Assembly (NCBI GenBank): GCA_001275005.1
Contig: JWZX01002879.1
Coordinates: forward strand, 1-30,566
Length of the DNA stretch: 30,566 nucleotides
Direction: 5' to 3'
Source of the DNA: Chrysochromulina tobinii
Taxonomy: Eukaryota > Haptophyta > Prymnesiales > Chrysochromulinaceae
The notes below the pieces were generated by a model. It saw nothing but the letters and a program-made list of their open reading frames with translations, was not told the DNA's origin and ran no database searches. How positions within the stretch are numbered: the first letter of the stretch is position 1; each line of letters starts with the position of its first letter. The translations under genes were made by a program, and so were the position numbers. Below are positions 3,371 to 27,790 of this stretch, in pieces.

Positions 3371-3784
3371 CAATCAGGTCATTCACGCGTGGGATTCAAA
3401 AGTCCTTTGACCGCTATAGGCCTTGACTATGGTGATCACGGCGCTGCGCACGTTCCATCACCTCTAGGGGCGCTCGAGAGTTCTTTCGCGGACGTGTCTC
3501 GTGTGTGTGATGTGTGGCCGTGTGCGATTCTTCGCGCAGTGGGAGCGGGTGACGGCCGCGGTCGCCGCGCCGCGCCGCTTTTTGCTAAGCGTCTGCGTTC
3601 CTTACGGTTCGTTCTTAAGCGCCGTGCCGAGCGCACCCCAGAAGTATTCACACATGGGAAGAACATCGGCGTGCGCGCGGCTTCTCTCTCTCCCGACGCG
3701 CCCGAATCAACAAGGTCGCGAGCACGATCGGCCGCAGGCACGTTTCGCTGCCCCGCGTCCGTACGCTGAACACGTCCGTGCGGC

Positions 3785-4009
3785 ATGTGCCACAAGCGCA
3801 GAGGTGTCTTTCTCGGCACGCGACACAATTCAAAGGCCACGCGACGGTCGGCACCAAACGCTAGGCGCGGAATGTGGCGGCGTGACCCCAGCCCCGACGT
3901 GCCGGCGCCACCAAAGCTGTCTCTGCTGCATTATGCTGCATTCGGTTGGGCTGCGCTCGTTGTTGCGTACGGCGTGCTGCGGCTTGTAGCGGCAAGCACT
4001 TCTCGGTGA
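3785..4009 (+). CDS. doubtful small ORF with one C-terminal membrane helix
   Basis: This open frame of 74 residues has a basic N-terminal half and one hydrophobic helix near the C-terminus (LLHYAAFGWAALVVAYGVL) ending STSR. The layout would suit a tail-anchored or mitochondrial membrane protein. I do not recognise it. The true gene could begin further upstream with an intron: the other frames of 3640-3840 encode Arg/Ser/Thr-rich leader-like peptides. The rest of 3371-4395 shows nothing I can support. Confidence 0.25.
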   Translation: MCHKRRGVFLGTRHNSKATRRSAPNARRGMWRRDPSPDVPAPPKLSLLHYAAFGWAALVVAYGVLRLVAASTSR

Positions 4010-7325: not shown

Positions 7326-10300
7326 ATGCCACCAGCAGCCAAGGGTCCCGGCTTGACGGCACTGCCGAAGATGCCTGCCAAAGATAAGGACAGGCCGCCG
7401 ACCGCGCGGATGGGCGGCGACTCGGACCGGGGCACAAACGGTGCCGCGCCCGCCAAGTCGGACCGGTCAACTCCTGCTGCATCAGCTGCTGCTGCTGCTG
7501 CTCCGGCCAAGCCGGCAGCCAACGGCAAGGTGGCGGCGACCGCGCCGGCCGGGAAAACCACATCTCCCTTCCTCAAGGATCAGGCCAGCACCAGCGCAAC
7601 GGCGGCGCCGACAGGGAAGCCGCCGACGCCGCGCGGGAAGGACGGCAAGCAGCCGACGCCGCGCGGGAAGGACAAGGATGCCAAGCCGGCGACGCCGCGC
7701 TCGAAGAAGGTGGCAGACGAGAAGCCGGGCGGCGGCTCCAAGCTCGCCGCCGCGGCCACCAAGCTCATCGCTCCCAAAGAAGGACCCAAGGGTTCTACGT
7801 CGGCTCTGCCGCCGAGCGCCATCGCGGCCGCGGTGGCCGCCACGAGCGCGCCCAAGGAGGGCGGCGAGAAGAAGAAGGATGAGAAGGGCAGCTCTGGCCC
7901 TTCACAGAAGAAGGTTGAGTTCTTCACAGACGATCTGCTGAACCGCAAGCCGTTGGACGAAAAGACGCGCGAGGCACTCGTCCACAAGTGCGGGGCGGGT
8001 CCACCCAAGCAGGAGGCCCGCTTCCAGCGCAATGAGAACAAGCGACCGGTAGGACGGCCCGACGAGCTCGCGCCGTCGCGGCACGAGCGGGTACCCCCGG
8101 GGCGTGTGGTGCTCATGTTCAATTGCTACGAGGCTTCTTTTGAGCTGCTGCACGGCGATCTCTCCACGCTGCCCGAGGCGGAGACGACGGAGCTTCGCTC
8201 GCTCACTTCGGGTAAGGTGCTCGGACGCATCAAGATCACGCCTGAGAAGGGCACACCCATCGAGGATCGCTTCGAGTTCAACAATGACTGGAAGGTAGGC
8301 TCCGAGCACGGCATCGTGCATGACGGGCTGCAGAGCGATGGCTACCTCGAGCTGCGCCTCGATTGGAAAGCCGTTTCGCGCGTCAAGAACGAGGACAGCG
8401 TCGCCAAGGTCGCCCTAATTAGGTACGCAAACCCACGAAGACTCATGACGTGTAGCTTGCATGCAAGCGCTCACCACGGCACCCTTCTCTCCCTAATTAG
8501 GGTCAACCCTTGGCTCGCCTATGGCTGTGGGGAAGGCGCGCGTCTCGCAGTTCGCAAGCCTGGCGCGACCGAGGGCATCGCCTCCACACTTCAGCGAGCG
8601 CTGCGCGACGACTACGTCGTGGTGCGCCGAGACGGTACGTACCTGATTGCCTGCTGATTGCGTGATGATTGCCTGATGATTGCGTGATGATTGCATGATG
8701 ATTGCATGATGATTGCATGATGATTGCATGATGAGGGAGGCAATCAGAGTCGGGAGATGCGCCGAGACGGTACCGGCCCAGCATGCATGCAAATGCTCAC
8801 CACGGCGCCCGCGCTCCGGCTCGGAGCCAACGGTCGAGCCAACGGTCGAGCCTTGAGGGGCTACGCATGCATGCACGTGCTCACCACGGCGCTCGCGTTT
8901 CGCACAGGTTCCGACTCGGAGCTGACCGTCGACCCGACGCCGTTCACGGTCGTCACCGCGACCAACCCGCGTCACCAGCCCGGCACGCGGCTGCTCATCG
9001 TACATGAGAACTCGTGCGTGGATGCCGTGAATGGAGCCGTGAATGGAGCCGTGGCCACGCCTCGCATGCACGCGCTCACCACGGCGCCGTTCCCTTCCTG
9101 TTCCCCACAGGTGCGTGGATGCCGTGGTGGAGCCGTGGCCGGAGCCGGAGATCCCAATCCACATGGGCTCGCGGCACCAGATGCGGGTCGAGGGTAAGCA
9201 TATCTCGGGCTGGATCTCGCCCATCTCGCCCATCTCGCCCATCTCGTCCCGATCTCGCCCACATCAGGTAAGCATATCTCGGGCTGGATCACGATCGTCT
9301 CGAAGGACCAAAAGCAGCTGCTGTGCAAAAAGGAGATCGCGGACGCAGCCCCCGAGGGGGCGGACCTGTCGGCGCTCACGATCGCCATCCCGCCGGTCGA
9401 GAAAGACTCGAAGCCCCTCGGAGATCGAATCTCGCGAAGGTGCGATCTCCCTTGATTGCCCTTGATGGCCCTTGATGGTCCTTGATGGCCCTTGATGGCC
9501 CTTGATGGCCCTGGAAGTCACGCCGTGGTCACCTCGCGGAGGTCGAATCTCACGGAGGAGCGATCTCCCTTGATGGCCCTTGATGGCCGTGGTGGTCACC
9601 TCGCGGAGGTCGAATCTCGCGGAGGAGCGATCTCCCTTGATGGCCCTTGATGGCCGTGGTGGTCACCTCGCGGAGGTCGAATCTCACATAATCTCGAGCA
9701 GGCTCTCCCCGGAGGAGGAGGCGGCCGCGGCGGCGAAGAAGGCCAAGGAGGGCGAGGGCGATGCGATTGATGAGGACGAGGCTTGGATCCTAAATAGGAA
9801 GAAGCCTCTCGTGATGCACTCGGGGTGCGACCCGGCCAATTCCGAGCGAGTCGGCAAGCATGCATGTGCTCACTACGGCGCCCTCGCCTCTCCACAGGTG
9901 CGACCCGGCCAATTCAGAGCGAGTCGGCTTGCTGACGAACAAGATGCCGGTTCACATCCTGGAGCTCCGGACGGTGAGATTGCGATCCTTGAGTGCCCTT
10001 GATTGCCCTTAATTGAGCTCCGAACGGTGAGATCGCAATGCGAAGACGAAAGAGCTCCCCACCCTGATTTGGCAGGTGCAAGATGAAGAGACAAAGGAGC
10101 TCTCGGTGCGAGCGTACGTGTCGACGATCCCGGGGCAGTCGGTGATCATATTGGTGGCGGCTCTGAACGAGTTCAACCACAGCGTGCAGCGCTTTCCCTC
10201 GGTCGCCCAATACGAAGGTGAGTCGCCCTAATGACCACTGATGACCACTGATGACCACTGATGACCTCTGATCGCATCCCTAATTGGCGCCCAATACGAA

Positions 10301-13300
10301 GGCGCCCGAGCCAACTACCTCGAGGACATCGTTGTGCGCGAGGCCCTTGTCGAGGATGCGATCACTGGTAACAATCTGCGCATCAAGGACCAGACGCTGC
10401 ACATCTCGACCGCGACGGATGCGCAAGATAACTGCCGCCCCATCCCAGCTGAGTGGAAGGTCGAGAACGTGCTCGATCTCGTCAAGCTCTATCTCGTGCC
10501 ATCTCCCAACCGCGCCTCCGGCTCGCATTCGACCCAACCGACCCTGGTGCGCGTTCCTTATGTATCGCCCTAATTGCCCTAATTGCCCTAATTCGAATGT
10601 AACGTTACATCGACCCAACCGACCCAACAGGTGCGCGCCGGCCCGGGCACTGGCAAGACCTGGATGGCCAAGCAGGCGGTCTACACGCTCGCCGACCGGC
10701 TGCTGCGCGGTTCGGGATCGAACGATGGGATTCGACTCGTACCCATCGTCGTCTTCGTCCAACGAATCATCTACCTGCTTCGCGAGGTCGAGAGCAAGAA
10801 CAGTCAGTATATTGAGCGGCGCAAGTCGCTCCTCGAACGTTACATCGAGTCCGTGTATAGCGGCAAGAAGTTGGAGGCGTGGTGTACGATGCTCATGCAG
10901 GCGTACGACATGCGCGCGCTCGTGGTGCTCCTCGACGGCGTCGACGAGGCCGCCGGCTTGCGAGACCAGATTGAGGAGTTTGTGCACAAGGAGGTGGTGC
11001 CGAGTGGCAACCGCGTGCTCGTCACGTCTCGTCCTGAGGGGGTACGACTCGAGACGTACTCGAAGACCTGACGGCCTCTGATGACCTCTGATGGCCTCTG
11101 ATGACCTCTGATTGCGTCTGTCATCAGGTACGGCTCGAGACGTACTCGAAGGCCTGATGACCTCTGATGACCTCTGATGACCTCTGATGGCCTCTGATGA
11201 CCTCTGATTGCGTCTGTCATCAGGTACGGCTCGAGACGTACTCGAAGACCTTTGTGGTGATGAACCTATGCTCGCTCACCAACGAGCAGCAGCGGCGTGT
11301 GATCAATATCCAGATGGAGGGTAACGTCTTCTTCGACCATCTGCTCTCGCTCGGCGAGGTCCGCAAGCGGCTCGACGACGCGTACAAGAAGGTCACGCCC
11401 GGTGCGCGCGACGAGCCTGAGAGCCTCTGATTGATTGATTGATTGATTGAAGGTCATGTCTCCCTAATTTGGCAGGTGCGCGCAACGAGCTTGAGAGCCT
11501 CTGGGCCCCGAACCGCTGGTTGTTACCCGACTCGGCGGCCGGCGAAGGGCCCAAGTTCAATCCGGACGAGCGCCTCAAGGAGATCTCCGGCGTGCGGCTG
11601 ATCGCGGCCACTGACGAGAAGCCCAAGTCGGCCTACATCAAGTCGCTCGATGCGAAGCTGCGCAGCGAGGACACCCCGTGCAAGGTGTCCCTCCTCAGCC
11701 GCCTCGACGCCGCGTGCCATAGCCACGTGCTCGGCAATTCACCAGACGAGTTCAAGTCCAGGTTCGAAGCGACGATCATGGAGGATATGCTTCCTCCCAA
11801 GGCGAAGGGCAAGGAAGACCTCGAGCATAAGGTGGCCAAACGGCTCGGGATGCTGCTTCAAAAGGAGAGGAAGGCGATCGAGGATGTCGCGTCCGAGAAC
11901 AAGAAGAGGGCGCATGAGAAGGCGAAGGCGAGTGGCAACCTCGCCAACTTCAAGGCGGGGCTGCAGGGTAGCGAGGTCTCGGAGGCAATCGCTGCGGTCA
12001 AGAAATGGGAAGAGATTTTGTCCCGCACCAACGAGGCGTACGTCGTGGCCGAGGCATGCGAAGAGATCTTCCTCAAGGTGCGTCGAGATTGCGTCGAGAT
12101 CGCGTCGAGATCGCGTCGAGATTGCGTCGCGATGGTCTGTCTGACGGCCTGTCTGATGACCTCTGAACACGTCTGATTGCCTGCCTCATCAGGTGGCGAA
12201 GAAGCTGGTAGTCGAGTCGGCGCGCGACGATGACGAGGCCACGCTCATGTGCAAGGACATTGCCTCATTAGGGTTCAAGGATCCAATTGACTTTTATGAG
12301 AGCGCCCAGAGCTACGCGGGGCGGTTTAGCGACAATGCGCATATGGGCGAGCAATGTGTGCCCGACTTGTTGCGCGCGCGCATCTCGATGCAGCAGGGGC
12401 AGCAGATCAAAGACATCGTGGTGCGGCTCGTGGGCGGCATGTCGCTGAGCGAAGAGGCAATCGAGCCAATCAAGCCGTCCTTGCGAGTCGCCGTTCCCGT
12501 CGACGAGGACGCGGAGGTACATTGATGGCGCCTGATTGCCTATCGGAGCGCCACTGATGACCTCTGATTGCTCGACGAGGACGCGGAGGTACATTGATGG
12601 CTGCCGCGGATGACCGGGCCTTGAATACAAGTGCTCAGCACGGCGCCTCGTCCCTCCTGTACAGGGCATTGTGAAGCCAAAGGTCGTAGAAAGCAAGCCC
12701 GGCGAGAAGATCGTGTGCGAGGTGATGCTCATGCAATTGCTCAACCGCTTTGAGGAGCTCGACCCGACCCATTTTAGGGAGGCCCGCTGCGGCCTCAAAC
12801 TCACGTGGAAGGGGGTACGTGTCGAGTGCATGCTGATTGCCCACTCTCGACCCGACCCATTTTAGGCCCGCTGTGGAAGGGGTACGTGGAAGGGGGCGGT
12901 GGATGGTCACCGAAGCCCTGCCACTGAGAGGACCTGCGCCTTGCATGCAATGCTCAGCACGGCGGACAATCGCCCCTAATTTGGCAGGTGTTCGTCTACT
13001 GCGAGCTCGAGATCCACTTTTGCGACATCCTCCTTGTGGGAAATCAGAGCGACCCGAAGCAGCACTACAACTTCTTCCGGCGGCGGCTGGCTGGGACGGT
13101 GCCCGAGACGGCGCTCGATCCTCACTGCGTCCTGCCACTGCCCGAGACGGCGCTCGCTCCTCACTGCGTCCTGCCAAATTAGGGAGATCCCTCGCATTGC
13201 GATGGATTGCGACTGATGAGCTCTGATGGCCTCCCTCATCAGGTGCCCGAGTCTGAGCTCGATCATCTCCTCGAGGAGAAACTCCTCTTCCTCGTCGACG

Positions 13301-16300
13301 CGACCGGCGTGCCCGTGCTGCTCTCGTTGCTCGTGCTCATCTTCACCGCGGGCGGCGAGGACCTGACGAAACTGCCATCGAACCGCATCGAGCTGTACGA
13401 GCTCGGCATCGACTCGGCCATCTCGCGTCGCCTGCTGCCTGGCAACCGCACGAACACCGACGCTCTGATCCACGACTGGCTTCGACTCTTCAACCTCGAC
13501 CGCTCGGCGATGAGCGCCACTCTCACCGAAGGCGCGACCGAGAAAAAGGAGCGCGAGCACCGGCCCACTCGCAAGGCGGCGCTCTCGATGGAGCTCTCGA
13601 ACAACGTGCAGGAGAAGAAGATGGCAGCGGAGATGGAGGCGGCGTCCAAGAAGAAGGCGAGTGAGCAGCAGTCGAGCAAGGGAGACCGCAAGCTGTACAA
13701 TCTCGACTCGAAGGAGGTGTACGAGGTGTTCCGGTACAGCGCCGCACTCTTTCATGTTGCCTCTGATTGCAATCCCGCACTCACTCATTGCCTTTGATGG
13801 CCTCTGCTGGCCTCTGATGGCCTCTGATGGCCTCTGATTGCATTTGTTTGCCGGTAAAGCGCGCACTCTCCCCCGCGGGATAGCGCCCCGCCGCATGCAA
13901 GTGCCCACCATGGCGCGCCATCGCCACCTCTTTCCCTCCAGGTACGGCGCGCACTACCTGCGCGAGGCGAACAAGCCCGAGGTGCAGCGCACCGAACTCA
14001 ACCGCATCGAGCTCTCCATGCCAAAGAAGCTCGTCGACACGGTCATGACGCTCGTGAACGCAAACTTGAAGTCCTTATTAGGCAACCGGGCGCAGACGTT
14101 CGGTCTCACGATGCTCCGCCACGTGGCAGTCGCCAATCAGTTGCAGGGGCGGCGCGAGTTCTCGGCGGTGCACGTGGCACAGGCGCTGCTGCTCGAGCAG
14201 GTACGTCGGGTTGCGTCGGGTTGCGTCGGGTTGCCTCTGTTGGCCGCTGTATGCCTCTGATCGCCTCTGATGGCCTCTGATTGCCTCTGGTGGCCTCTGA
14301 TCGCCTCTGATGGCCTCTGATTGCCCCCTGATCATCTTCGCTGGTGCTCGTGCAGATGAACACGGAGGGTCTCACCCTATGGATGCATCTCAACAAGGAG
14401 GACGCGGGGCTGCCCCTCATCAAGACGCTCGAGGCGCAGACCGAGCTCGCGCCCGCGCAGTACCAGTTCAAGCACCTCTCCTTCCAGGAGGGCTTGTTCG
14501 CGCAGCACCTGTTGATACAGGCGGATTTAGGCTGGGAGGGGTGGGAGACGGATGCCGTCTCGTGCGAGTTTCTCAACAACCCGTTCATGAACAACACGTG
14601 CCGGATCGCGGCGGGCTTCCTGGGCTCTCGCCTCGCCAAGCGCCGACCTGCTTGGAACTTTTCGACCCCGGACGCTCGACTGACCGAGGTGGGGCTCACG
14701 GCCCTCTGGCTGATCTGTGAGAAGAACGAGAAGCTGCGCGATCTGAATCTGAACTCGAACAACGTCGGCATCAGCCCGAACGACTCGTCGGGGCTTGCGA
14801 GGATGCTCCTCTCCTCTCCCTCACTCGTCATCCTCGACCTGAGCAACAATTGCTTGGGCGAGCTCAAGCAGTACGCTCATTGCCTCAAATGACCCTTGAT
14901 TGCCCCCTGATGACTTCGAATGAGAGCATGGAGGCTTGATGGCCTCTTAATGGCCTCTTGATGACTTCGAATGAGAGCATGGAGGATTGATGGCCTCTTA
15001 TTGGCCTCTTGATGACTTCGAATGAGAGCATGGAGGCTTGATGGCCTCTTGATGGCCTCTTGATGACTTTTGAGGACACCCTTGATTGCGTCCCTCATCA
15101 GGTACATTCGTGCCTTTGGTCGTGGACTAGCCGCGAACAAGACGCTGACCCAGCTCAACGTGTCGAGCAACAAGCTGCTGCCCGAGGGCATCAAGGTCGT
15201 GTGCAACGCTCTCAAGACGTGAGTGGCCACTGATGATAGCCACTGATGACGGCCACTGATGATGGCCACTGATGACGGCCACTGGTGATGGCCACTGATG
15301 ACAGCCGCTGAATGCGTCGGAGCGCTGTCCTCATCAATTAATTTCCCTTAATTGCGTCTCGATGACGGCCACTGATTGCGTCGGAGCGCTGTCCCCATCA
15401 GGTGCACGGCCATGAAGGACCTCGACATCTCATACAATTCCCCCGGACGCGAAGCGGCACTCTCCGCGATGCTGCTCGTGCACCCTGGCCTTCGCTCCTT
15501 GGGAGTCGTCGAGAAGGAGCCGACCACGCGATCCGAGCGGACCTTTTGGCTCGACACCCGGGGTAAGGACACATGATTGCCTCTGATTGCCTCTGATGAT
15601 CTCTGATGAGCACCTTTTGGCTCGACACCCGTGGTAAGGACACATGATTGCCTCTGATTGCCTCTGATCATCTCTGATGAGCACCTTTTGGCTCGACACC
15701 CGTGGTAAGGACGCGATTGGGCAGTCGCCATCGAATTCCGTTGAGGACCTCTGATGAGCTCTGATGGCCTCCCTCATCAGGTAAGGAGGCGATTGGGCGT
15801 GCGTTACTCGAGCCGGCGTGCGCGGGCACAGTGCAGTTCCTGCAGTGCGACGTCTTCTCGCTGACCGACACGACAGAAACCCTCAATTGGATCAGCCGAG
15901 CGCCGTGCGATGCGATCGTGCTTGCCGGCGTGCTCCGCTCCAACTCCACGCTCAAGACGCTCAACATCGCCAACGGCGACATTGGCGACTATGAGCGCGA
16001 GCTGATCGGGACTGCCTTATTAGGCAACACCTCCGGCCGACTCGGCTATTGCGACGCGTACGGTCTCAAGGAGAACGGCCAGCCCTCCCATACGGTCGAC
16101 GTGAAGGACAAGGAGCAGATCCGTTCACGCCGATCGTTCACACTCTTCGCGGGCCTGCTGCGCGCGAATCGTACGAGCCTGATTGCCTCTGATTGCTCTT
16201 GATTGCCAATGATTGCCACTGATGACGAGCACGAGCCTGATTGCCTCTGATTGTCTCTAATTGCTCTTGATTGCCACTGATTGTCACTGATTGCCTCTGA

Positions 16301-19300
16301 TGACAAGCACGAGCCTGAATGGCCACTGATTGCCACTGATTGCTGCCCCTGATGACCACACTGATGACCACTGATTGGGTGTGAGGACCTCTGATGGCCA
16401 ATGATGAGGACCGCTGATGATGACCACTGATGATGACCACCGATGACCTCCTACCTCAGGCACGATCACAAGCCTCACTCTCTGCTCCGTCGGACCCGAG
16501 CACGTCGAGGTCCTGGCCGATGCGCTCGCGACGAACCGCACGATGGTCGAGCTCCGGCTGGAGCAGCCCTCGAAGAATGACGCGACGCAGATCGCGACGC
16601 TTCCCGTGCAGGAGCTCAACGGCGCCAAGAAGGTCCGTCTGATGGCCCTCTGATGACCTCTGATGGCCCTCTGATGGCCTCTAGTTACCTCGGATGACCT
16701 CTCTAATGAGCTCGGATGGCTGCTCTCCTCAGGTCGAGCTCATTGACCTGTCCAAGGCGGGATTCCCCATCGAGGGGGGCGAAGGACTCGGAGCTTACCA
16801 GCCCATGCACCGGTACGCCGTCGCGGTCGTGGGCGCCATCCTGGGCGCCAACATGACGGTGAAACGACTCAAGCTCAACCCCGGCGGCGCGACCGAGGGG
16901 GGCGCAGTGCTCGAGCACATTCACAGGTAATCCCTCCGATTCCCTCTGATTGCCCTCTAATTACCTGCGTAATCACAGTGCTCGAGCACATTCACAGGGC
17001 GCGCAAGTCGACGCTCGCTATCTTGGACGTGACGGGCATCGAGCTTGGCGACCGCGGCGGCGCCAAGTTCTTTGAGTCGCTGCTTGCTGGCAAGTCGTCC
17101 TTTTTGACCTCGCTGCATCTGGGCTCCAACAAGCTGACGGACCAGGCTGTGGGACCCTTGCTCGTCGAGACGCTGCGATCGGATGGGTGATTGCCATTGA
17201 TGACGTCTGATTGCCATCGATGACGCCTGCTTGGCATTGAGGATGACCCCTGATTGTCGAGACGCTGCGCTCCGATCCGTGTGTTTCGTTGATTGCCTCC
17301 CCGATCAGGTGTAATCACATGGATTGCCTCACCCATCAGCAGTACTCACATTGATCGCCTCCCCCACCAGGTGTAACATCTCGACGCTCGATCTGAACGA
17401 CAACCAAATCGGAGCGCCCGTGATTACGCAGGCCATCAAGTATAACCGCTCGCTCACGAATTTGGACATCCGTAACTGCCCAATCGACGACGACGGTCTC
17501 GGCTCGATTGGGAGATTGCTGCTCGACGCCGACTGCTCGTGCCAAGTGCGTTACGCCTCGCGTGCCGCCGTGGGTGTGCCGCCGGCATGCATGTGCTCAC
17601 CACGACGCCCTCGCCTCCCCACAGGTACGGTACGTCTCTTGTGCTGCCTTTGAGGTCAAGGACGGCAATGCGGACCTTGTGATTCACGGCACGACGCTCG
17701 GCTCGGGCGCCACGCGGCTGCTCGCCGGTGTGTTCAAGTACAACCACCTCGTCAAGAAGCTCAACCTCTCGGGGCTCGGGATCGAAGCCGATGCGGCCAG
17801 CGTGCTCGCGATTGCGGTCACGCACAACACGACCCTCACCTCGATCGACCTCTCCAACAACCCGCTCTCCGACGTGTCCGTGTACACTGGCGCGATGCAG
17901 CACGAGACGACCGGACTGTACGCCCTCGCCGAGGCTGTCAAGGTCAACAAATCGCGATTGGCCCCCTCATGATTCACACCGTGGCTGCATGCATGTGCTC
18001 AGCACGACGCCCTCGCCTCCCCAAATCGCGATTGGCCCCCTCATGATTCACAACGTGGCCGCATGCATGTGCTCAGCGCGACGCCCTCGCCTCCCCACAG
18101 GTCAACAAATCGCTCGACGCGATCACGCTCGAGGGCGGCAAGCTGCCCGTAGATCAGCTCAAGGGCGACAAAAAGATGCGCTCGCTCGACCTCTCAAGGA
18201 AGGCGCTCGGGTTCGTGAGTGCCATCTTCATCGGCACGCTTCTCCGCGGCAACACCTTCCTCACGGAGCTCGTGCTTCATTCCAACGAGTGAGCCCCTGA
18301 TGAGCTCTGATTGCCTCTGATGAGCTCTGATGAGCTCTGATGACCTCTGATACCTTCCTCACGGAGCTCGTGCTTCATTCCAACGAGTGAGCCCCTGATG
18401 AGCTCTGATGAGCTCTGATTGCCTCCCTCTCTTTGCCCCCTCTAATGACCCCCCTCATCACGAACGACCCCCCTCATCACGAATGACCCCCCTCATCTCT
18501 AATGACCCCCCTCATCACTAATGACCCACCTCATCAGGCTCACACCTGTCGGGGCGACCATCGTCGTCAAGCAGCTCTCCTCCTCCCTCCGCACCCTCGA
18601 CCTCGCCAACGTGGTGCGCGTCGAGGAGCGATCGAAGGCGGACAAGAAGGAGAAGTCGCGCTCGACGATGCGCGCCAACGCCGTCGAGTTACCCGCCGAG
18701 CAGCTCGAGTCTCTCTGGCTGGCCGTCTCGACCCTCGGGTACCTTGACAAGCTCTCTATTGATCGCCCCCTCTCCATGGCCCCCTCTAATGACCCCCCCT
18801 CATCACTAATGACCTCCCTCATCAGGTACCTCGACAAGCTCTCTATTGATCGCGACCACTTGCGCGACCTACCTAATTTGGGCAAACTGCTCTCCCTTAA
18901 GCACCTGTCCGCGGCGAACAATAAGCTGACAGCCATCCCCGACGACATCGCCTACGTTCGTGGGCTGAAACAGCTCACGCTAGTAGGCAACTCGCTGCGC
19001 GAGCTCAACTCGGCCATTGGCGATCTCGAATTGCTTGAGAAGCTCGAGGTGCGCTGATTGCCTCTGATTGCCTCGGATGGCCTCGGATGGACTCGGATGG
19101 ACTCGGATGGCCTCTGATTGACTCTGATTGCCACTCGAGAATCTCGATGTGCTCTCCAATCAGCTCAAGTGCCTCCCCGTCGCCATCTCCAAGCATGCAA
19201 GTGCTCACTACGGCGCCCTCGCCTCCCCACAGGTGCGCTCCAATCAGCTCAAGTACCTGCCCGTCTCGCTCTCCAAGCTGCGCGTGCTCAAGCAGCTGGA

Positions 19301-22300
19301 CGCTTCCGAGAACTTTCTCATCGCGCTCGAGCCCTCCATCTGCGATCTGCATGAGGTCGAGAAGCTCGAGCTCAAAGACAATCCGCTCCAACGGCCGCCT
19401 GCATCCACCGCGCGGCAGGGCATCGGAGCCGTGCGTAAATTCTTCCAGGAGAAGCTGATGCAAGGCTTGATGAAGTACTATGGAGCGCGCGTGTGCATCG
19501 TCGGGCACGCTCAGTCGGGCAAGACGGTACGTTGATTACCATTACCATTGATTGCCACTGATTGCCACTGATTGCCACTGATTGCCTGCCGGGCATGCTC
19601 AGTCGGGCAAGACGGTACGCGTACGCCCAGCATGCATGTGCTCACCACGGCGCCCAAGATGCGCGTCCACCACGGCGCCAAGATGCGCGCTCACCACGGC
19701 GCCCTGCCCTCGCTCACTTCCCCACAGGTGCTCACCAAGGCTCTCAAGCAGCTCGAGCAGCACATGCGCGACCTCTCGTACTCGCCCTCCGATCACATCA
19801 GCGTCTCGTCCGCGCTCATCGGCGAGGCGGACTCGCAGGGGGTCCTCACCCTGTGGGACATTCCTGGTGGAAAGGATTATGGGTCCGTGCTACAGCCGTA
19901 CCCGTGCGACGGCTCCATCTCCATGCATGCATGTGCTCACTACGACGCCCTCGCCTCCCCACAGGTCCGTGCTACAGCCGTACCTGTGCGACGGCTCGGT
20001 CTACCTGCTCGTGGTGCCCGCGCTCGATGTATCCATCCTGAAGACGATGGACGAGCTCTATGTCGGTCGCTGGCTCAACGCATTGCGCCTGGGTGCCCCG
20101 AACGCCACCGTCATCCCGGTCATGACCAAGGGCGATCTGCTGATGTCCGCGGAGCGGCGCGACCGTTCAAGTGCGGTGCTCGAGGCAGCATGCGCCCCGC
20201 AGGTCGAGTGGCTGAAGTCGCGCCTCGAGCAGTTCCAGGTAGTTACCCTGATTGCCTCCCTAATTGCCTCCCTAATTGCCTCCCTAATTGCCTCCCTAAT
20301 TGCCTCCCTAATTGCCTCCCTAATTGCCTCCCTAATTGCCTCCCTAATTGCCTCGAGCACTTCCAGGACTCTGTGCCGGAGCATATGCCCAAGCTCAAGA
20401 TCCGGATCGACCTCTTCTCGTGCGTGTGCTCGGCCGTTGGCGGCGAAGCCTCCGTCGAGGTGCGCACTGATGACGCTGATGACGCCTGATGACGCCTGAT
20501 GACGCCTGATGACGCCTGATGACGCCTGATGACGCCTGATGGCCGTTGGCGGCGAAGCCTCCGTCGAGGTGCGCACTGATGACGCCTGATGACGCCTGAT
20601 GACGCCTGATGACGCCGGATGGCCACCTAATGGTCGCCCGATGACGCCTGATTGTCGCCTGATTGTCACCTGATGGTCGCCTGATTGTCGCCTGATTGTC
20701 GCCTAACAGGACCTTCGCAAGAAGCTCGAGAGCTTGATGTCGCCCGACCAGACCCCGAACCTGACGCGCGCGGCGTACCTGTCGACTGTCTTCTTGCGCG
20801 CGCTGCGCGACGGGCGCGACCCGATCGATGCGGCACGCGCGGCCGATCTCGGGTATATCCCGTCGGCGACGAATGCGGACTTCAAGCCGAGTGCGCGCCT
20901 GATGACGCCTGATGACGCCTGATGACGCCTGATGACGCCTGATAACGCCTGATGACTTCAAGCCCAATGTCCTCGCTTCCCCACAGGTGCGCGCGCGTAC
21001 ATGCCGTACGCCGAGGCGCGGCGCATGTACTTTGACGAATTCGTACCGGCACTCAAGCTGTCCGTTACGGGCGAGAATGCGCTGATGGAGGCCATCAAGC
21101 TGATGAGCTCGCTCGGCGAGGTCGTCATGGGCCCGTCGCAGGTCATCTACCTTGATTGCTTTGATTGGCCTTGATTACTTGAACTCAAGTCCGTGGGCGC
21201 CCTTGATTGACCTTGACTGTACTTGGGCTCAAATCTGTCGATCCGAATCGTCGCAGGTCATCTACCTCAACCCGCAGTTCATCCAGCAGCTGCTCCGGCC
21301 GCTCTTTGACGAATCTTGCGGCGGCCGCCTCTGGGCGCAGCGCACGCTCGCGCGCCAGGATGCAATTCGCCTGCTGGCCACCGGCACCGGACTCACCGAC
21401 TCCGAAAAGGAGAGCGCGATTGCAGCGGCAGACCACCTCGTGAACACAGGCGAGCTGTCCTTGAGTGCCCTTGAGTGTCTTTTGAGTGCCCTTGAGTGTC
21501 CATGATTGCCCTTGAGTGCCCTTGAGTGTCCTTGATTGCCCTTCACGACCACTTAACGAACACTGGCGAGCCGCCGCGACGAGCTCCGCCCGCCGCAATC
21601 TCCGTGAATCTCGGATGATCTCGGATGATCTCGGATGATTGCCCCCTCATCAGGCGAGCTGCGCGAGGAGCTCTTCGCCACGTTTTGGGCATCGACCGGG
21701 CTGCTCAAGGACCAGTGCGTGGAGTGCCACTGATGACCTGCCTTGCATGCACGTGCTCACCACGGCGCCTCGGCCCAATGTGCTGTGCTCACCACGGCGC
21801 CCCGCTCTATGTGCTCCCCCCCCTCCCCCATCTTTCCCCACAGGTACCCGGACTTTGCGACGCTGCTCTGCCAGGCGGGCGCGCTCTTCATCGCCGACCA
21901 CTCGCATGACGGGCGTCGCTGGATGATGCCCTCGAGGCTGCCCGATACGATGCCTGAGGGCGCACGCGACCTGTGGAACCACGTGAGCGCACGGCCGGGC
22001 TACGAGGTGCGATCTCCGATGATGATGATGATGATGACCCTGATGACCTGTGGAATCACGTGAGCGCACGGCGGGGCTACGAGGTGCGATCTCCGATGAT
22101 GACCCTCTCTGATGATGATGACCCTCTTTGATGACGACGAGGTGCTCGATCCATCTCGAGCCATCTCGAGCCATCTCGAGCCATCTCGAGCCATCTCGAT
22201 CCTTCTCGATCCTTCTCGAGCCATCTCGAGCCATCTCGAGCCATCTCGAGCCATCTCGATCCCTCTGAGCGCCACTCGGGATTGCTATCTCCCATCGATC

Positions 22301-25300
22301 TCGATCCCTTTGAGCGCCACTCGGGATTGCAATCTCCCATCGATCTCAGGTGCTCACGATCTCCGTCGCGCTCGGCAACTCCATCCCGTACGGAATCTTC
22401 GAGCGCCTTCTCGCGTCGTGTCAAGCGCTCGGCACGTGCTACAAGGTCTGATTGCCTCCCTCCTCAGGTCTGATTGCCTCCCTCATCAGGCTGCGTGCCT
22501 CCCTCATCAGTCTGATTGCCTCCCTCATCAGGTCTGGCGGACGGGCTGCCACATGATCTCGCGTCATCTCGAGGCCATCGACCATATATGGTTCGAGATC
22601 CGCGACAAGCATTGGGGCAGTCGGGACTCGTTCAAAAAGGGGTACCGCGCGCGCATCAGCGGCGAGATCGAAGTCGACGCTTCGGTCCTCCTGCAAGCCG
22701 ACGAGGGGAACTTTCCGCGAAGCTCGGAGGGCGCGGCCGAGGCGGAGGTAGAGAGAGCCTGCCGTGGACCCGACGCGCCCCTGCCGTGCCTGCACACGCT
22801 CACGACGGCGCCCTGACTTGCATGCATACGCTCACGACGGCGCCCTGGCCTCCCCACAGGCCGAGTTGGAGAGCTTCAAGCGAAAGAGAGACGCTGGGCC
22901 GGGCGAGTACGAGCTTGTGGTGCACGGGTGCATGCGATTGATGAGCCCTGATTGCGACTGATGAGCCCTGATTGCGACTGATGAGCCCTGATTGCGACTG
23001 ATGAGCAATGATTGCGACTGATGAGCCATGATTGCGGTGAACGGGTGCGTGCGGGGAGCGTGCGCGCGCTCCGGCTCGGCATGCATGTGCCCACCACGGC
23101 GCCCTCGCCTCCCCACAGGTGCGGTGAGCGTGCGAATCGGCTCGACATGTGGGTGTCGATGCTGTGGGTGCGCAGCCAGATGCAGGTGTGCTGCTGCCTG
23201 GATGGCCAACGCCTTGCATGCATGTGCTCACCACGGCGCTGCGTAGATAGCTAAAGCCGTGCCGCTCCCCACACGCCTCCCCGGCAACGAGCATGCATGT
23301 GCTCACCACGGCGCTCCCCAACTTGTTCACAGGCGTGCCTGGACGACTTTCACACGGAGACGAAGAAGATCTACGTGCGCTGCCCCACTTGCCATACAAG
23401 GCAGATCGAGAACCCATTTTCGGAGGGAGCGACCTATTGGCCCATTGATGACGTGATGATGCGTCGCCAGCGATGTGAGCCCTGTGGGGAAGAGATGCAT
23501 CTACATCATTGTACCATGGATGCGAGCCGGGGCATCCCGATGAGCTCGCTCATCCTGCAGCCCTTCGAGGACGTGCCCGAGCTCAAGTTCTGCAGCGAGA
23601 AGATGCGGTACGGGCGACCGTTCGAGACGTCGTACACGCTACATAAGCTTCTCGGGCAGCCGAGCTCTGATTGCATGCTGATTGCCTCCCTCATCAGGTA
23701 CGGGCGACCGTTCGAGACGTCGTACACGCTTCATAAGCTTCTCGGGCAGCCGAGCTCGGAAGCGCTAGACAAGCTCAAGGCCAGCGGAGAGGATGGCATT
23801 CGACACGAGATGGTCGAGTTCTACTGCTCGCAAAGCGGCAAAGACGCGGGCTCGCACGACAAGGACGAGTACGTCGGATGGCCTCTGATTGCCTTGGATG
23901 GCCTCTGCGATGGCCTCTCATGCCACCAGATCTGGATGCGTCTGGATCGACCGAGATCGACTGGCTGCGAGATCTAATTGCCTCTGATGACCTTCTCTAA
24001 TTGCCTCTGATGGCCTTCTCTAATTGCCTGTGATGGCCTTCTCTGATTGCGTCCGATTGCGTCGCTCTCTCTAGGTACGGATGGAGCGAGCTCGACTGGC
24101 TACGCTACATGAGCAACTCGTGGCCCGACCTCAAGGGCGCCGTGTCGGGCGCCATGTCCTCGCGCACCGGCTCCGATGAGGAGAAGCTCTCGAAGCTCAA
24201 GGCGGAGGCCAAAACCAACGGATTCGATAAGGGCCACCGTGACGTGTCGCTCGAGTACGTGGCTGGCCACTGTGGAGGACTTGCCTTGTTTGGCTCGCCA
24301 CCGTAGAGGACCTTCCTCCTTTGGTAAGCAAGTGCTCACCACGGCGCCATGCTCCCCCCTTTTGCCCACAGGTACTTTGCCAAGCGGCCAATCGCCGTGA
24401 TGGCCAGCCTCAACCGCGGCCACCTGCTCGCTCTCCGGCTCTTCTCGTCAACGGCTGTCTCGCGACGCGTCAACAGGGCGTTACACGAGGGGTGCTCGGC
24501 CGATCGGCCCCATCCTTACCCGTCGCTCGTGACCCAGCTGATCGACGCGCTGCACCGGTACGTGGACGGCACTGATGAGCCATGATTGCCTCTTGATGAC
24601 CTCTGATGAGCTCTGATGATCCCCGATTGCCTCTTGATGACCTTCGATCACCCCTAATCGCCCCCCTAATGGCCTCCCTAATTGCCTCCCTAAATATATC
24701 CATGATTACCTTCCTAATTGCCTCCCTAATCGCCTCCCAAATCGCCTCCCACAGGCTGCGTGCGGCACAAGCGGAGCAGCGCCGCGCAGCCGTCGCCAAA
24801 GCGGCCGCCCTCAAAGAAGCTGTCGACCAGCTGCGTGCGGCCGAGGCGGAGGAGGACGACATCAAGGCGGCCGCGCGCAAGGCAGCCGAGGCCGCTGCCG
24901 ATTCGGAGGCGCTGCAAGTCTTCACCTTTTGGCGCGCCGTGTCGGGCCTCAACCCCGTCGAGTATAAGCAGCGAGGCTCCTCGGAGCTCGCGTTCCTCTC
25001 GTTGACGAAACGCAAGTCGGTCGCCGAAAAGTATGTGGACGAAACCCTGAGTGGACGAAACCCTGAGTGGACGAAACCCTGAGTGGACGAAACCCTGAGT
25101 GGACGAAACCCTAATTGCCTCCCTGATTGCCTCGCTAATCACTCCCTGATTGCCTCCCTAATTGCCTCCCTGATTGCCTGCCTGAGTTCAGATACGCGGA
25201 GCTCGCGCTCAAGATAGTGGCCCTGATTGCCTCCCTAATTTTGCCTCCCTAATTGCCTCCCTGATTGCCTGCCTGAGTTCAGATACGCGGAGCTCGCGCT

Positions 25301-27654
25301 CAAGATAGAGGCCGAACCCAACTTTGAGGCGAAGAAGGCCCTGGCGCTCTTCGGACTGGCGGGCAGTAGCCTCAATACCGCGCGGACTGGGGGCTCGTCT
25401 CCCCAGTCATTGTCTCCCAATCGTGCCGGTTCCCCACAGAGGACGCAGAGGTCGCCGGTGGTGACTCACCGGTCCTCGGCTGAGTTCATGGAGCCCGGCG
25501 AGCTGGCCGAGGAGGGCGAAGGACCTGTGGGGATTGCGGCCGAGCCGGAGGTGGCGCCCGAGGCGACGCCAATCGAGGCGGCGGCGGAGGAGGCGAAGGC
25601 GGCGGAGGAGGAGGCGGCGGAGGAGGAGGCGGAGGCGGCGGCGGAGGATGAGGAGGAGGAGGCGCTCGTGTTCCTCGCCATCGCACCGTCCCGAGCACCA
25701 GGGAAGGCAAGCACTTCCACACTACGTAATGACGAGGAGACCAGGGCACGGGTGCGCGCGCTCACCACGGCGCCCTGCACGAATGGAAGCCCTTGCATGC
25801 ACGCCTTGCATGCACGCCCCAGCAGGCGCGCGCTCACCACGGCGCCCTGTCCCTGTCCCATCCCCACAGGTGCACGCGCTCTTCGAGTCGATGGACACGG
25901 ACGGGAGCGGCCACGTGTCACGTAAGGAGCTCGCCGCCAAACTGCATGCCGACGGTGAGTCGCCCTTCGCGCCCTCGCGCACGCCGCCGTCCCCACCCCA
26001 CCGAGCCAGTGCTCACCACGGCGCTCGCAACGACGCTCACCACGGCGCTCATGACGAAGCTCAACGACGCTCACCACGCCCCCCCCCCTCTTGGTCCCCA
26101 CAGGTGAGCTTGAAGCTCTCCTAGGGCTGCCGGACGCGAGGACCATTCCGCAGGTGGTGCGCCTCATGCGCTACCTCGAGCAGACAGGTGCGTGATTGCA
26201 TGCCGATTGCGTCCGATTGCGCCTCATGCGCCACCTCGAGCAGACCGGAAGAGTTTCGGTTTCGTCACCACGTGGACGGTTTCGTCACCACGTGGACGGT
26301 TTCGTCACCACGTGGACGGTTTCGTCACCACGTGGACGGTTTCGTCACCACGTGGACGCGCCACGCCCACCCGCGAGCTTGCGCGAGTGCTCACCACGGC
26401 GCCTCCCCACCCCTTTCCCCACAGGCGAGCTCGACCAAGATGGTGACTCGCACACGACGCTCGACGAGCTCATGGCAGGGCTGCTCGGCACGGCGCCGCT
26501 CAAAGGGATCGTCGGCGACGCCGTCGCGCTGCACGAGGACGCTCACGACGACGCGTTCGACGAGAGTGATTCCTCCGATGACGATCTCGATCGGCAGATT
26601 GGTACCCCATCCGTCTCCTTCCGTCACCCAAAGGTGCATTGATTGCCACTGATGATGTGCGTTGATTGCCTCCGATGACGATCGCGTTCGGCATCCGTCT
26701 CCTTCCGTCACCCCCACAAGTGCCCAGCGGCCTGATGGGTGGGTATCACCCCAGCATGCATGTGCTCACCACGGCGCCCCGTCCCTGTCCCTTCCCCACA
26801 GGTGCCCGACGGCCTGATGGGCATCACCCAGCCCATGGCCACCGCCGACGAGGCGGCCGCCGACGAGGCCCAATTGACGAACCCCGAGGCCGCCGACGAG
26901 GCCCAGTTGACGAACCCCGACGCGCCGGCGGCGAAGGCCACGGAGGCGGCGCCCGGGGGGGCGGCTCCCGCGGCGGCGCCAGCGGCCGCGAGGGCGCCGC
27001 CCAAACGGGGCCGTCTGAAGAGCAAGGATGATGTGGCCGAAGCGGCGCGGGAGCAAGGCAAGGGCAAGGGGCCCGCGGAGCCGAAGAAGAAGAAGCGCTC
27101 ACCCATAAAAGGCAACTTTGGCGCGACGTTCAAGTTCACGCCCCGAGGCTCACCTGTGGACACCGGCGAGAAGAAGAGGTTCGTTGATTGCCGCAGAGGA
27201 GGCCTGCCTTGCATGCGAGTGCTCACCACGGCGTTCGCTCCCCGCTGAGGGCCTGCCTTGCATGCGAGAGTGCTCATCACGGCGCTCGCGTCCCACTTGA
27301 GGGCCTGCCTTGCATGCGAGAGTGCTCATCACGGCGCTCGCGTCCCCTCCTGTCCACAGGGAGGAGAAGGTCGAGCCTCCCATCCTGCTGTTCCGCGTGG
27401 CGGTGCCGACTGAGCTGACGCTACCGGTGGATGTGTCCGCCTTCTCCGCCTTTCCTGACGAGGCCGAGTGCCTGTACGCGCCGGGCGTGCACCTTGAGCA
27501 GCGCAAGGAGGAGCTCGCCTACCTGCTGCCCACTGTCAGGTGCAAGATCGTCGAGGTCCTTCCATCGAATGTGGGCACCAAAGGGCACAAGCTCAAGAGC
27601 GCAGGCGCCGTTGCCAAGGATGACAAGGCGGACACCAAGGCCGCCGCCACGTAG
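7326..27654 (+). CDS. giant NACHT-LRR-Roc-COR-ADP-ribosyltransferase protein, 53 exons, 4056 residues
   Basis: Exon ends: 7326-8422, 8501-8634, 8908-9013, 9111-9193, 9268-9439, 9702-9824, 9898-9973, 10076-10217, 10302-10546, 10631-11041, 11224-11401, 11476-12077, 12193-12516, 12665-12814, 12988-13098, 13243-13733, 13942-14200, 14356-14870, 15102-15218, 15402-15562, 15781-16170, 16460-16632, 16733-16926, 16998-17186, 17371-17545, 17625-17942, 18101-18288, 18538-18738, 18826-19048, 19233-19526, 19728-19882, 19965-20238, 20367-20459, 20710-20890, 20987-21141, 21257-21449, 21654-21714, 21844-22006, 22350-22445, 22532-22747, 22860-22927, 23119-23185, 23333-23607, 23698-23868, 24075-24254, 24372-24557, 24755-25030, 25283-25751, 25870-25954, 26104-26187, 26425-26633, 26802-27178, 27360-27654. 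They sum to 12171 bases (4057 codons with stop), and every junction joins in phase (22 phase 0, 10 phase 1, 20 phase 2), which strongly supports one gene. Domains are listed separately. The architecture suggests an intracellular receptor: LRRs sense, NACHT and Roc switch, ART modifies targets. A few junctions (exons 7/8, 29/30, 51/52) had alternatives, and two shorter genes cannot be excluded. Confidence 0.75.
8635..8907 (+). repeat. composite intron 2: class A, an inverted class A copy, and two class B units
   Basis: The donor is GTACGT. Seven or more GATTGCATGAT words follow, then TGATGAGGGAGGCAATCAG at about 8729-8747, which is the reverse complement of the class A ending CTGATTGCCTCCCTCATCA. 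Then come a copy of the upstream exon end (GCGCCGAGACGGTAC, about 8760) and two class B units. The acceptor GCACAG is at 8907. Confidence 0.75.
9440..9701 (+). repeat. intron 5 with a 67-base tandem repeat derived from the exon edge
   Basis: Copies beginning GGTCGAATCT at 9541, 9608 and 9675 repeat every 67 bases. Each contains a version of the exon 5 end and donor (CGAATCTCGCGAAGGTGCGA) and of the class A-like filler CTTGATGGCC. Confidence 0.75.
10631..11401 (+). other. NACHT-type NTPase core (exons 10-11)
   Basis: Walker A is GPGTGKT at about residues 730-736. Walker B is LVVLLDGVDEA at about 823-832, with the small-residue/acidic pattern typical of NACHT (LLDGxDE). A sensor-1-like VTSRPEG follows at about 857-863. 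Order and spacing are normal for STAND-class NACHT ATPases, which oligomerise on nucleotide exchange. The exon 10 border lies just before the P-loop. Confidence 0.85.
11042..11223 (+). repeat. intron 10: the whole intron duplicated head to tail
   Basis: Unit 1 is 11042-11127 (86 bases) and unit 2 is 11128-11223 (96 bases). Each begins with GTACGRCTCGAGACGTACTC, the start of exon 11, and ends TGTCATCAG. Either acceptor gives AG|GT, but only the second continues open: after the first, the frame meets a stop in the filler. Confidence 0.85.
11476..14700 (+). other. NACHT-associated helical and winged-helix region (exons 12-18)
   Basis: Exon 16 holds LPSNRIELYELGI (about residue 1362), matching the winged-helix segment LPxxRxELYxxGI found in NACHT ATPases. 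Exon 18 holds FKHLSFQEGLFAQ (about 1606-1618), matching the F-x-H-x-S-F-Q-E hallmark that precedes the LRRs in NLR proteins. Exon 12 is a long Lys/Glu-rich helical insert. Exon 13 and exon 16 (EKKMAAEMEAASKKK) also contain charged coiled-coil-like helices. Confidence 0.7.
14871..15101 (+). repeat. intron 18 with a 51-base tandem repeat
   Basis: TGATGACTTCGAATGAGAGC recurs at 14908, 14959 and 15010 (period 51), with a partial fourth at 15061. Each is followed by class A words (TTGATGGCCTCT). The acceptor is CTCATCAG. Confidence 0.85.
15563..15780 (+). repeat. intron 20 with two extra copies of the exon-donor boundary
   Basis: TTTTGGCTCGACACCCGTGG followed by TAAGGAC occurs in the exon at 15544 and twice more in the intron, at 15615 and 15686, exactly 71 bases apart. 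Each copy carries a GTAAGG donor. The frame uses the first donor and the acceptor at 15780, where exon 21 again begins GTAAGG. Confidence 0.85.
17943..18100 (+). repeat. intron 26: doubled class B cassette
   Basis: Two near-identical 75-base units, each AAATCGCGATTGGCCCCCTC ... then TGCATGTGCTCAG. The 5' end GTCAACAAATCGC duplicates the start of exon 27. Confidence 0.85.
18826..19440 (+). other. second leucine-rich repeat array, short LRRs next to Roc
   Basis: Exons 29-30, about residues 2442-2560. These repeats have the short LxxLxxxxNxLxxLPxx form of LRR-ROCO proteins: LKHLSAANNKLTAIPDDI, LKQLTLVGNSL, VRSNQLKYLPVSL, LKQLDASENFLIAL, VEKLELKDNPLQRPP. The change of repeat class at exon 28/29 marks the seam between the NLR-like and the ROCO-like halves. 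Confidence 0.8.
19049..19232 (+). repeat. intron 29: class A plus class B enclosing a diverged LRR-exon copy
   Basis: Class A words occupy 19049-19130. Then 19133-19192 is about 60 bases similar to the exon 29 end plus exon 30 start; in frame it would read LENLDVLSNQLKCLPVAIS. A class B unit follows with acceptor CCCCACAG. I treat all of it as intron because the direct join gives an intact LRR and the copy lacks a GT donor. Confidence 0.65.
19527..19727 (+). repeat. intron 30, directly after the Roc P-loop GKT codons
   Basis: This is a composite intron. Class A words are followed by a copy of the exon end (GCTCAGTCGGGCAAGACGGT at about 19600-19618), then one full and two partial class B cores (ACCACGGCGCC). 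The acceptor is CCCCACAG. Confidence 0.8.
20239..20366 (+). repeat. intron 32: 12-base tandem array
   Basis: CCCTAATTGCCT is repeated about eight or nine times with almost no variation. It is closed by GCCTCGAGCACTTCCAG, a one-mismatch copy of the upstream exon end (GCCTCGAGCAGTTCCAG). Confidence 0.85.
20460..20709 (+). repeat. intron 33: 10-base array with internal exon copy
   Basis: CTGATGACGC repeats occur on both sides of a copy of the upstream exon end and donor (GGCCGTTGGCGGCGAAGCCT onward, at about 20540-20579). It ends CGCCTAACAG. Confidence 0.8.
21450..21653 (+). repeat. intron 36: GC-AG intron with duplicated junction
   Basis: The upstream exon ends AACACAG and the intron begins GCGAGCTG. 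The downstream exon also begins GCGAGCTG, so phase 1 is kept and the codon is Gly. No GT in this neighbourhood restores the frame. A further copy (AACACTGGCGAGC) lies at about 21558-21570. The filler is TTGAGTGCCC and TCGGATGATC words. Confidence 0.75.
22007..22349 (+). repeat. intron 38, the longest: 10-base CATCTCGAGC array and boundary copy
   Basis: A second copy of the exon end and donor (GTGAGCGCACGGCGGGGCTA, about 22060-22079, through GAGGTGCGATCTCCGATGAT) is followed by about twelve CATCTCGAGC/CATCTCGATC units and a doubled GAGCGCCACTCGGGATTGC segment. Confidence 0.8.
23333..23540 (+). other. zinc-ribbon-like CxxC-CxxC segment after COR
   Basis: CPTC at about residues 3205-3208 and CEPC at about 3236-3239, with nearby His and Cys (HLHHC), form a plausible zinc-binding pair separated by 27 residues. 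A segment ending in IxCPxC after COR is seen in other ROCO proteins. Metal binding is inferred. Confidence 0.55.
23608..23697 (+). repeat. intron 43: almost pure exon duplication, 90 bases
   Basis: The first 60 bases match the first 60 bases of exon 44 (23698-23757) with a single mismatch. The remaining 30 bases are class A words ending CTCATCAG. The length is a multiple of three with no stop, so retention would add 30 residues. Confidence 0.9.
24372..25345 (+). other. ADP-ribosyltransferase domain, first part (R and S motifs)
   Basis: Exons 46-48. The helical lead-in (LLALRLFSSTAVSRRVNRAL, then HPYPSLVTQLIDALHRLR) resembles the N-terminal half of protist ART domains. A coiled helix (about 3460-3505) follows, then FTFWRAVSG with the candidate R at 3519, then GSSELAFLSLTKRKSVAEKY with the STS-like S-L-T at 3541-3543. 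These are the R and S of the R-S-E clade that transfers ADP-ribose from NAD to protein. Activity is inferred from motifs only. Confidence 0.68.
25031..25282 (+). repeat. intron 47: 16-base array plus duplicated acceptor block
   Basis: GTGGACGAAACCCTGA is repeated five times from 25035. Class A words follow. TGCCTGAGTTCAG plus the exon 48 start (ATACGCGGAGCTCGCGCTCA) then occurs twice, at acceptors 25191 and 25282. The second keeps the reading frame. Confidence 0.8.
25490..26633 (+). other. acidic stretch and EF-hand pair inserted in the ART domain
   Basis: Exon 48 encodes a Ser/Pro-rich linker, then about 50 residues dominated by Glu and Ala. Exon 49 carries a complete EF-hand loop, DTDGSGHVSRKE (about 3716-3727), with calcium-ligand positions 1, 3, 5 and 12 filled. 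Exon 51 carries a second loop, DQDGDSHTTLDE (about 3767-3778). The helix between them is QVVRLMRYLEQTG. A very acidic tail follows (DESDSSDDDLD). Exon 52 encodes a low-complexity Ala/Glu/Pro linker and a basic KKKKRSP motif. Confidence 0.75.
26188..26424 (+). repeat. intron 50: 20-base array with CACGTG core
   Basis: TTTCGTCACCACGTGGACGG is repeated five times at about 26260-26358. It is preceded by a copy of the upstream exon end (CGCCTCATGCGCCACCTCGA) and followed by a class B core. Confidence 0.85.
27179..27359 (+). repeat. intron 52: three tandem class B cassettes
   Basis: GGCCTGCCTTGCATGCGAG followed by TGCTCAYCACGGCG occurs three times at intervals of about 50 bases. It ends CCTGTCCACAG. 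The last two copies are nearly identical. Confidence 0.85.
27360..27654 (+). other. ADP-ribosyltransferase domain, final part (E motif) and C-terminus
   Basis: Exon 53 reads ILLFRV, then VDVSAFSAFPDEAECLYAPG. This corresponds to the ART strand followed by S-x-F/Y-P-x-E-x-E-x-L-x-x-P-G. Glu 3993 and Glu 3995 form an ExE pair, typical of arginine-specific mono-ARTs, the second Glu being the catalytic one in the family. The chain ends 55-60 residues later in a Lys/Ala-rich tail with TAG at 27652-27654. Confidence 0.68.
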
Positions 27655-27790
27655 CCAAGGACCCGCGCTGCATGCAAGTGCTCACCACGACGCGGACACC
27701 AAGGCCGCCGCCACGTAGCCAAGGACCCGCGCTGCATGCAAGTGCTCACCACGACGCGGACACCAAGGCCGCCGCCACGTAGCCAAGGAA
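27628..27790 (+). repeat. 64-base tandem triplication across the stop codon
   Basis: GCGGACACCAAGGCCGCCGC followed by CACGTAGCCAAGG occurs at 27628, 27692 and 27756 (period 64). A class B core (GCATGCAAGTGCTCACCAC) lies between the copies. The coding frame stops at the first TAG, so copies two and three are 3' UTR. Confidence 0.9.

Follow-up and report, generated by a model that had tools for sequence, protein, structure and literature searches.

A gene of Chrysochromulina tobinii predicted to place NACHT-LRR, ROCO and ADP-ribosyltransferase domains in one polypeptide

The NLRs are oligomerising ATP switches, and they and the ROCO proteins are usually regarded as separate switch classes. The gene described here lies on a 30,566-nucleotide (nt) stretch of the haptophyte Chrysochromulina tobinii (JWZX01002879.1, contig C1720 of our search set; the whole stretch is referred to as the window) and is predicted to encode, in one chain, a NACHT half with leucine-rich repeats (LRRs), a ROCO half (LRR, Roc, COR) and a C-terminal ADP-ribosyltransferase (ART). 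In the accessible parts of the respective papers, ROCOs are described as nucleotide-dependent dimers (PMC6337361); the 111 brown-algal ROCOs are of LRR-ROC-COR layout, of which three also carry a peptidase and three DUF900 (PMC11378527); bacterial LRR-AP-GTPase-COR conflict proteins have at least 24 kinds of C-terminal domain (PMC8195603); and LRRC9, for which an immune-like role has been speculated, also has LRRs and an ART in one chain (PMC7955679).

The window protein shares with the NACHT-LRR STAND receptors or NLRs (NLRC4, NOD2, NLRP3 and AB1Y20_002506 of Prymnesium parvum) the NACHT core, Walker A and B, SRPEG and the LRRs that follow. Unlike them it has a long additional stretch separating sensor 1 from the helical part, and ROCO and ART after the LRRs; its Pfam scan gave no death-fold or TIR family at E ≤ 1. 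With the ROCO proteins (LRRK1/2, MFHAS1, brown-algal LRR-ROCO and bacterial Roco) it has in common the LRR-Roc-COR order, a Roc above the Pfam cut-off and a COR-B end with a Cys pair after a PGL motif, whereas an ART replaces the kinase and a NACHT-LRR stands in front. The bacterial conflict proteins, as far as the available text of PMC8195603 describes them, have the same LRR, Roc-type GTPase, COR and variable C-terminal domain; the window protein differs in being eukaryotic, in having at its front a further STAND switch, of ATP type and with LRRs of its own, and in the EF-hands of its putative effector. Mono-ARTs of the R-S-E type (ART2.2, C3-like enzymes; PF01129) possess the same R, S-x-T and E-x-E motifs, the fold being taken here from a relative, but the window ART is the C-terminal domain of a receptor-like protein and is split by an EF-hand pair. 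The ART of LRRC9, by contrast, is remote and PARP-like with poorly conserved catalytic tetrad positions, in the order LRR-ART-LRR (PMC7955679, accessible part). The terms NACHT and ADP-ribosyl are absent from the main text of the ROCO survey PMC11378527, a check that excluded its Figure 2 with some forty domain combinations, and from the accessible part of the review PMC6337361. A limited search of open-licence literature, mostly of titles and abstract openings, found nothing that names the full domain order or an NLR-fronted LRR-Roc-COR-effector, and nothing on Prymnesium and NACHT; the initial annotation of this DNA likewise knew of no protein so ordered. The parts and the LRR-ROCO-plus-effector theme are known; the NLR front half on that theme appears to be new.

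The gene was rebuilt with a splice-aware Viterbi model trained on hand-picked segments, its start and stop, though not its exons, being taken from the initial annotation. A 79-exon model obtained with a weak intron penalty was discarded as over-split. A stronger penalty gave 55 exons. Correction by hand at eight points, most of them places where a copied intron end had led the model through an exon twice, removed two exons and shifted six boundaries, leaving 53. The corrected model comprises 12,171 nt, with 4056 codons and a TAG in one frame; 51 introns are GT-AG and one is GC-AG, and exons occupy 60% of the gene span. These are the numbers first reported, but since that exon count was known during hand correction the exact agreement is not fully independent, while the paralogue evidence below is. 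The listed motifs (Walker A/B, HLSFQE, Roc G1/G3/G4, the CxxC pair, and R, S-x-T and ExE of the ART) were all located in the rebuilt protein. Intron words are nearly excluded from the modelled exons, which is more than chance: within the gene range TGATTGCC has 52 matches and TGATGACC 25, none of them in exons, and TGATGGCC has 31, TGATGAGC 17 and GTGCTCACCACGGCGC (≤ 2 mismatches) 29, each with one in exons. A copy on contig C968, 94% identical over 527 nt, lacks the introns at 19883-19964 and 20239-20366 exactly at the modelled boundaries, and the ratio of nonsynonymous to synonymous substitution rates (dN/dS) on this one segment is low, 0.27 over 258 shared codons.

The assembly (53.15 Mb, 2253 contigs) was searched with two protein blocks, NACHT and Roc, the counts being contigs among the matches listed. 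The NACHT block occurs on at least 24 other contigs and the Roc block on at least 11. Both are present on eight (C523, C684, C1000, C1830, C1859, C1912, C2149 and C2221), always in the same NACHT-then-Roc order and strand, and seven of the eight match the ART region at least partly, C2149 reaching the contig end; the Roc block is found without NACHT on C304, C968 and C1825. Paralogues with the joined order are intron-poor. A single stop-free frame of 3355 amino acids on C523 aligns to window residues 378-4030, from NACHT through ART; one of 3100 on C684 aligns to residues 194-3257; and one of 2648 on C1000 runs from window residue 1159 into the ART. The metagenome proteins P0090, found in another assembly, and P0003 bridge the NACHT end to COR and LRR to ART, respectively; some of the metagenome matches are the species' own paralogues (C1000 as P0012, C1859 as P0014, and one close to C523 as P0013). 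The original proposal of a single NACHT-LRR, LRR-Roc-COR and ART polypeptide is upheld by these frames and bridging proteins. Among side observations, in two giant NACHT-LRR relatives, L037 (C2119, 4493-amino acid frame) and L038 (C1990, 3799), the second LRRs are followed by a repeat of the family N-terminal region and by what resembles a degenerate NTPase; no Roc or ART was seen in the stretches inspected by eye. The precomputed family PF27087 is assigned to many homologues (P0001, P0002, P0003, P0079, P0090, P0116) and is absent from our own Pfam scans.

In the front half, Walker A, Walker B and sensor 1 are present, Walker A beginning at residue 728, Walker B at 823 and SRPEG lying at 859-863. 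In profile search the window's own NACHT stays below the Pfam cut-off, and the assignment leans on relatives: all six family segments match the NACHT profile at E ≤ 0.1 (best 6.7e-6), PF05729 is precomputed for P0098, P0102, P0116, P0122 and P0124 among 51 matches, and the fold of P0116 matches NLRC4, NOD2 and NLRP3. A PDB sequence search had returned four CDC48-type sequences (E 0.028-0.095), and the relative's fold was used instead. The part after the NTPase is presumably helical/winged-helix, as in NLRs, and LRRs of the Pfam LRR_6 type follow the NACHT. The family N-terminal region aligns in paralogues and has no Pfam match at E ≤ 1. Named relatives of the NACHT part come from Prymnesium parvum and Cylindrotheca closterium. 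Of the alignments, A1 was built from five ART segments (window and C1912 excluded), A2 from 48 of 62 matches (14 partial or weak ones excluded) and A6 from 20 of 51.

Pfam Roc matches the window protein at 32.8 bits (cut-off 27), with G1 within residues 2601-2614, G3 from 2656 and G4 from 2717, and a five-member Roc profile matches the Roc of LRRK2 (E 8e-10), Rab chains standing lower in the list. Profile-profile comparison indicates that a COR region probably follows Roc directly: hhalign to ROCO COR gave E 3.1e-6 (probability 88, 344 columns), with three controls at E 0.2, 0.46 and 0.84. Neither the window protein nor alignment A5 matches Pfam COR at E ≤ 1, the 60 PDB matches listed contain none beyond Roc, and P0001 gave COR-B at E 0.19. 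The CxxC pair (3205-3208 and 3236-3239) is present as first described, but aligns with the ending of ROCO COR-B and is not a separate module. The Roc match count was rejected as a measure of ROCO expansion, since the 54 matches in this genome include frames of about 200-300 amino acids resembling small GTPases and the same profile matches 8 of 14 control prokaryotes.

For the C-terminal domain, profile search bears out the ART assignment: paralogue C1830 scores 26.3 bits against PF01129 (cut-off 22.3), four of the five A1 segments match it at E ≤ 5 (best 1.8e-6), P0003 reaches 18.6 bits, and the structure model of the relative P0015 has the ART fold. The fold was used because a PDB sequence search gave seven sequences, the top one at E 0.008; judged by name, five are ART chains, and the other two are unrelated. 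Named relatives are from the cryptophytes Baffinella and Rhodomonas. The motifs R, S-x-T and E-x-E are all intact. The mono-ART of the initial annotation stands, but not as a contiguous domain; an insert of about 400 residues, previously unreported, separates the helix that follows S-L-T from the ILLFRV strand and thereby parts S-x-T from E-x-E. In the P0015 model this site is the loop between helix 145-152 and strand 165-170. The insert carries two loops, DTDGSGHVSRKE and DQDGDSHTTLDE, of 12 residues each with D, D, S/D and a final E, as in the calcium loops of EF-hands. The EF-hands are absent from P0003 and from the five paralogues with a readable ART (C523, C1000, C1912, C2221, C1859), C1912 and C2221 having shorter inserts at the same site. 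Seven other contigs carry relatives of the EF module at E ≤ 1e-13 and three more carry weaker ones, the pair lying in otherwise different frames (L039, L040, L041, C2117, C1164, C961, C1335), of which three viewed by eye looked ankyrin-like (one) or of low complexity (two). Because the paralogue ARTs lack EF-hands and the module is found in other frames, the catalytic domain of the window copy seems to have acquired a mobile EF-hand module. The third ART motif varies in the family (E-K-D in C1000, D-C-E in C1912, D-A-E in C2221 and Q-A-E in P0003), a hint that targets differ or that activity has been lost. The whole genome has 38 PF01129 matches and 14 control prokaryotes have none; several lie in frames of at least 1500 amino acids, one of them 6180 amino acids long on C2239.

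The domain assignments are thus supported, those of NACHT, COR and ART through relatives or profile-profile comparison. With moderate confidence we read the protein as a member of an expanded family of algal intracellular receptor-enzymes, whose NLR and ROCO switches would release the ART; to judge from its sequence, the layout looks like danger sensor, trigger and weapon in one chain. The NACHT-LRR half would sense a cue or ligand and move, in the manner of NLRs, from the ADP-bound state to one that binds ATP and oligomerises, while the GTP cycle of the ROCO module would set a monomer/dimer state. In whichever order the two act, copies brought together or reshaped would release the C-terminal mono-ADP-ribosyltransferase, which would modify host proteins using NAD+. 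An E-x-E motif suggests arginine as the target. The modification might then halt or kill a cell that is infected or damaged, and calcium, if bound by the EF-hand pair in the ART loop, may gate catalysis in the window copy. This mechanism is drawn from the behaviour of NLRs, that of ROCOs and the bacterial LRR-AP-GTPase-COR systems. Only tentatively do we suggest that the ATP and GTP switches, each with its own LRR sensors, form a two-key lock on the ART, the domesticated mobile EF pair being a third, calcium key; if so, NLR and ROCO signalling would meet within one protist chain. With both placed ahead of a single enzyme, one can ask whether the switches are layered and which of them leads. 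The protein would also extend the bacterial LRR-Roc-COR-effector theme to a protist with a multi-copy family and suggest one way in which cells may die in algal blooms, with the EF-hand insert as a testable putative calcium gate.

Several points weigh against the receptor-enzyme reading. The immune-type sensor-switch-effector role is one we infer from domain layout. The window protein itself has no Pfam ART match, its NACHT scores 19.4 and 23.2 bits against a cut-off of 26.7, and Foldseek ranks NOD2 first for P0116 with AAA proteins interleaved ahead of NLRP3. The Roc G3 is WDIPG in the window and WDLAG in some paralogues. Among the matches listed, the Roc block is found in only 8 of the 24 NACHT-block contigs (on C1225 the sequence reaches the contig end), so the NACHT family does not depend on Roc and ART. 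C968, with which dN/dS was computed, is a partial copy with deletions. The EF-hands are matched by four Pfam models at E 2.4e-5 to 5.5e-4, each under its curated cut-off, and the insert could disable the enzyme.

Two rivals are serious. The first, which we consider unlikely, is a non-immune scaffold, an LRRK-like ROCO with an ART replacing the kinase and the NACHT-LRR as a regulatory ATPase, serving membrane traffic, the cytoskeleton or stress. Roles outside immunity are known for human LRRK2 and for other ROCO proteins, and the present analysis gave no tie between the gene and infection; however, a multi-copy NACHT-LRR family with differing C-terminal ends, the number of genomic ART matches, and LRR, NACHT and ART in one chain all fit conflict systems better. 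The second, rather unlikely, holds that the window ART is a pseudoenzyme broken by its insert and that the protein is a sensor or decoy for its paralogues. The missing Pfam match, the EF-less ARTs of five paralogues and deviating third motifs such as that of C1000 favour it, but R, S-x-T and E-A-E are retained, the insert falls in a loop of the relative's model, C1912 and C2221 carry shorter inserts there, and the EF module is conserved at other places in the genome. Improbable, in our estimate, is alternative splicing that skips the exons at 25870-27178 and yields forms with and without EF-hands from one gene: the EF-hands do sit on exons of their own, with separate splice sites, but about 145 insert residues share exon 25283-25751 with the ART. 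That two adjacent genes were falsely fused, or that the gene is a pseudogene, is very unlikely, for although separate NACHT-LRR proteins (P0116 of Prymnesium parvum) and NACHT-block contigs without Roc exist, a split near 18738 is ruled out by the stop-free C523 and C684 frames and by P0090, all of which span the joint, and a pseudogene by the open frame, conserved motifs and dN/dS.

Table 1. Features of the window, in window positions
Feature	Positions	Strand	Basis
Whole gene, 53 exons, 4056 amino acids	7326..27654	+	splice model; paralogue frames
Basic low-complexity N-terminus (residues 1-195) and conserved family N-terminal region (about 196-644)	7326..10217	+	
NACHT NTPase core, residues 645-922	10302..11401	+	motifs; fold of relative P0116
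Presumed helical/winged-helix part after NTPase, VPVLLSLLVLIF..LPSNRIELYELGI	13243..14870	+	HLSFQE at 1608
LRR block 1, LRR_6 type	14700..18738	+	Pfam LRR_6, E 2.3e-22
LRR block 2, LxxLP type, adjoining Roc	18826..19480	+	Pfam LRR_8, 8.8e-8
Roc GTPase, residues 2601 to about 2740; G1 GHAQSGKT, G3 WDIPG, G4 TKGD	19485..20190	+	
Probable COR-A/COR-B region, CxxC pair at end	20367..23607	+	hhalign
ART, first part; R3519 (24933-24935), S-L-T 3541-3543	24230..25030	+	motifs; relatives
Insert within ART, residues about 3563-3964, acidic/low complexity	25318..27375	+	
EF-hand loops, residues 3716-3727 and 3767-3778	25894-25929 and 26433-26468	+	read directly
ART, last part; E-A-E 3993-3995 (27460-27468), then stop	27376..27654	+	
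Ribosomal protein L27	606-1127	-	
Ric8 fragment	5646-6104	+	
KxDL protein	6373-7155	+	
Introner-like introns (examples)	8635-8907, 11042-11223, 19527-19727; also 30270-30341		sequence words

The gene neighbours look ordinary; three further neighbouring frames had no Pfam match at E ≤ 0.01. In 19 of the 52 introns at least the first five bases copy the start of the next exon (control 2.4%), the pattern expected of introner-like insertions. Two families of such introns were seen in the window, the TGATGGCC/TGATTGCC arrays and the GCATGCATGTGCTCACCACGGCGCCC element. A 16-base core of this element is matched closely at 33 places in the window where 0.03 are expected, every one on the strand of the gene, and a 26-mer of it occurs in 74 exact copies genome-wide (control 0). 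The copy on C968 (L015, C968:2246-5821) is an internally deleted partial gene with exons 90-94% identical and without two of the window introns, a case of intron presence and absence between near-identical copies. Lastly, at 27641-27780 a tandem repeat of the last exon's end and its stop codon follows downstream, the copies being separated by an intron-type element.
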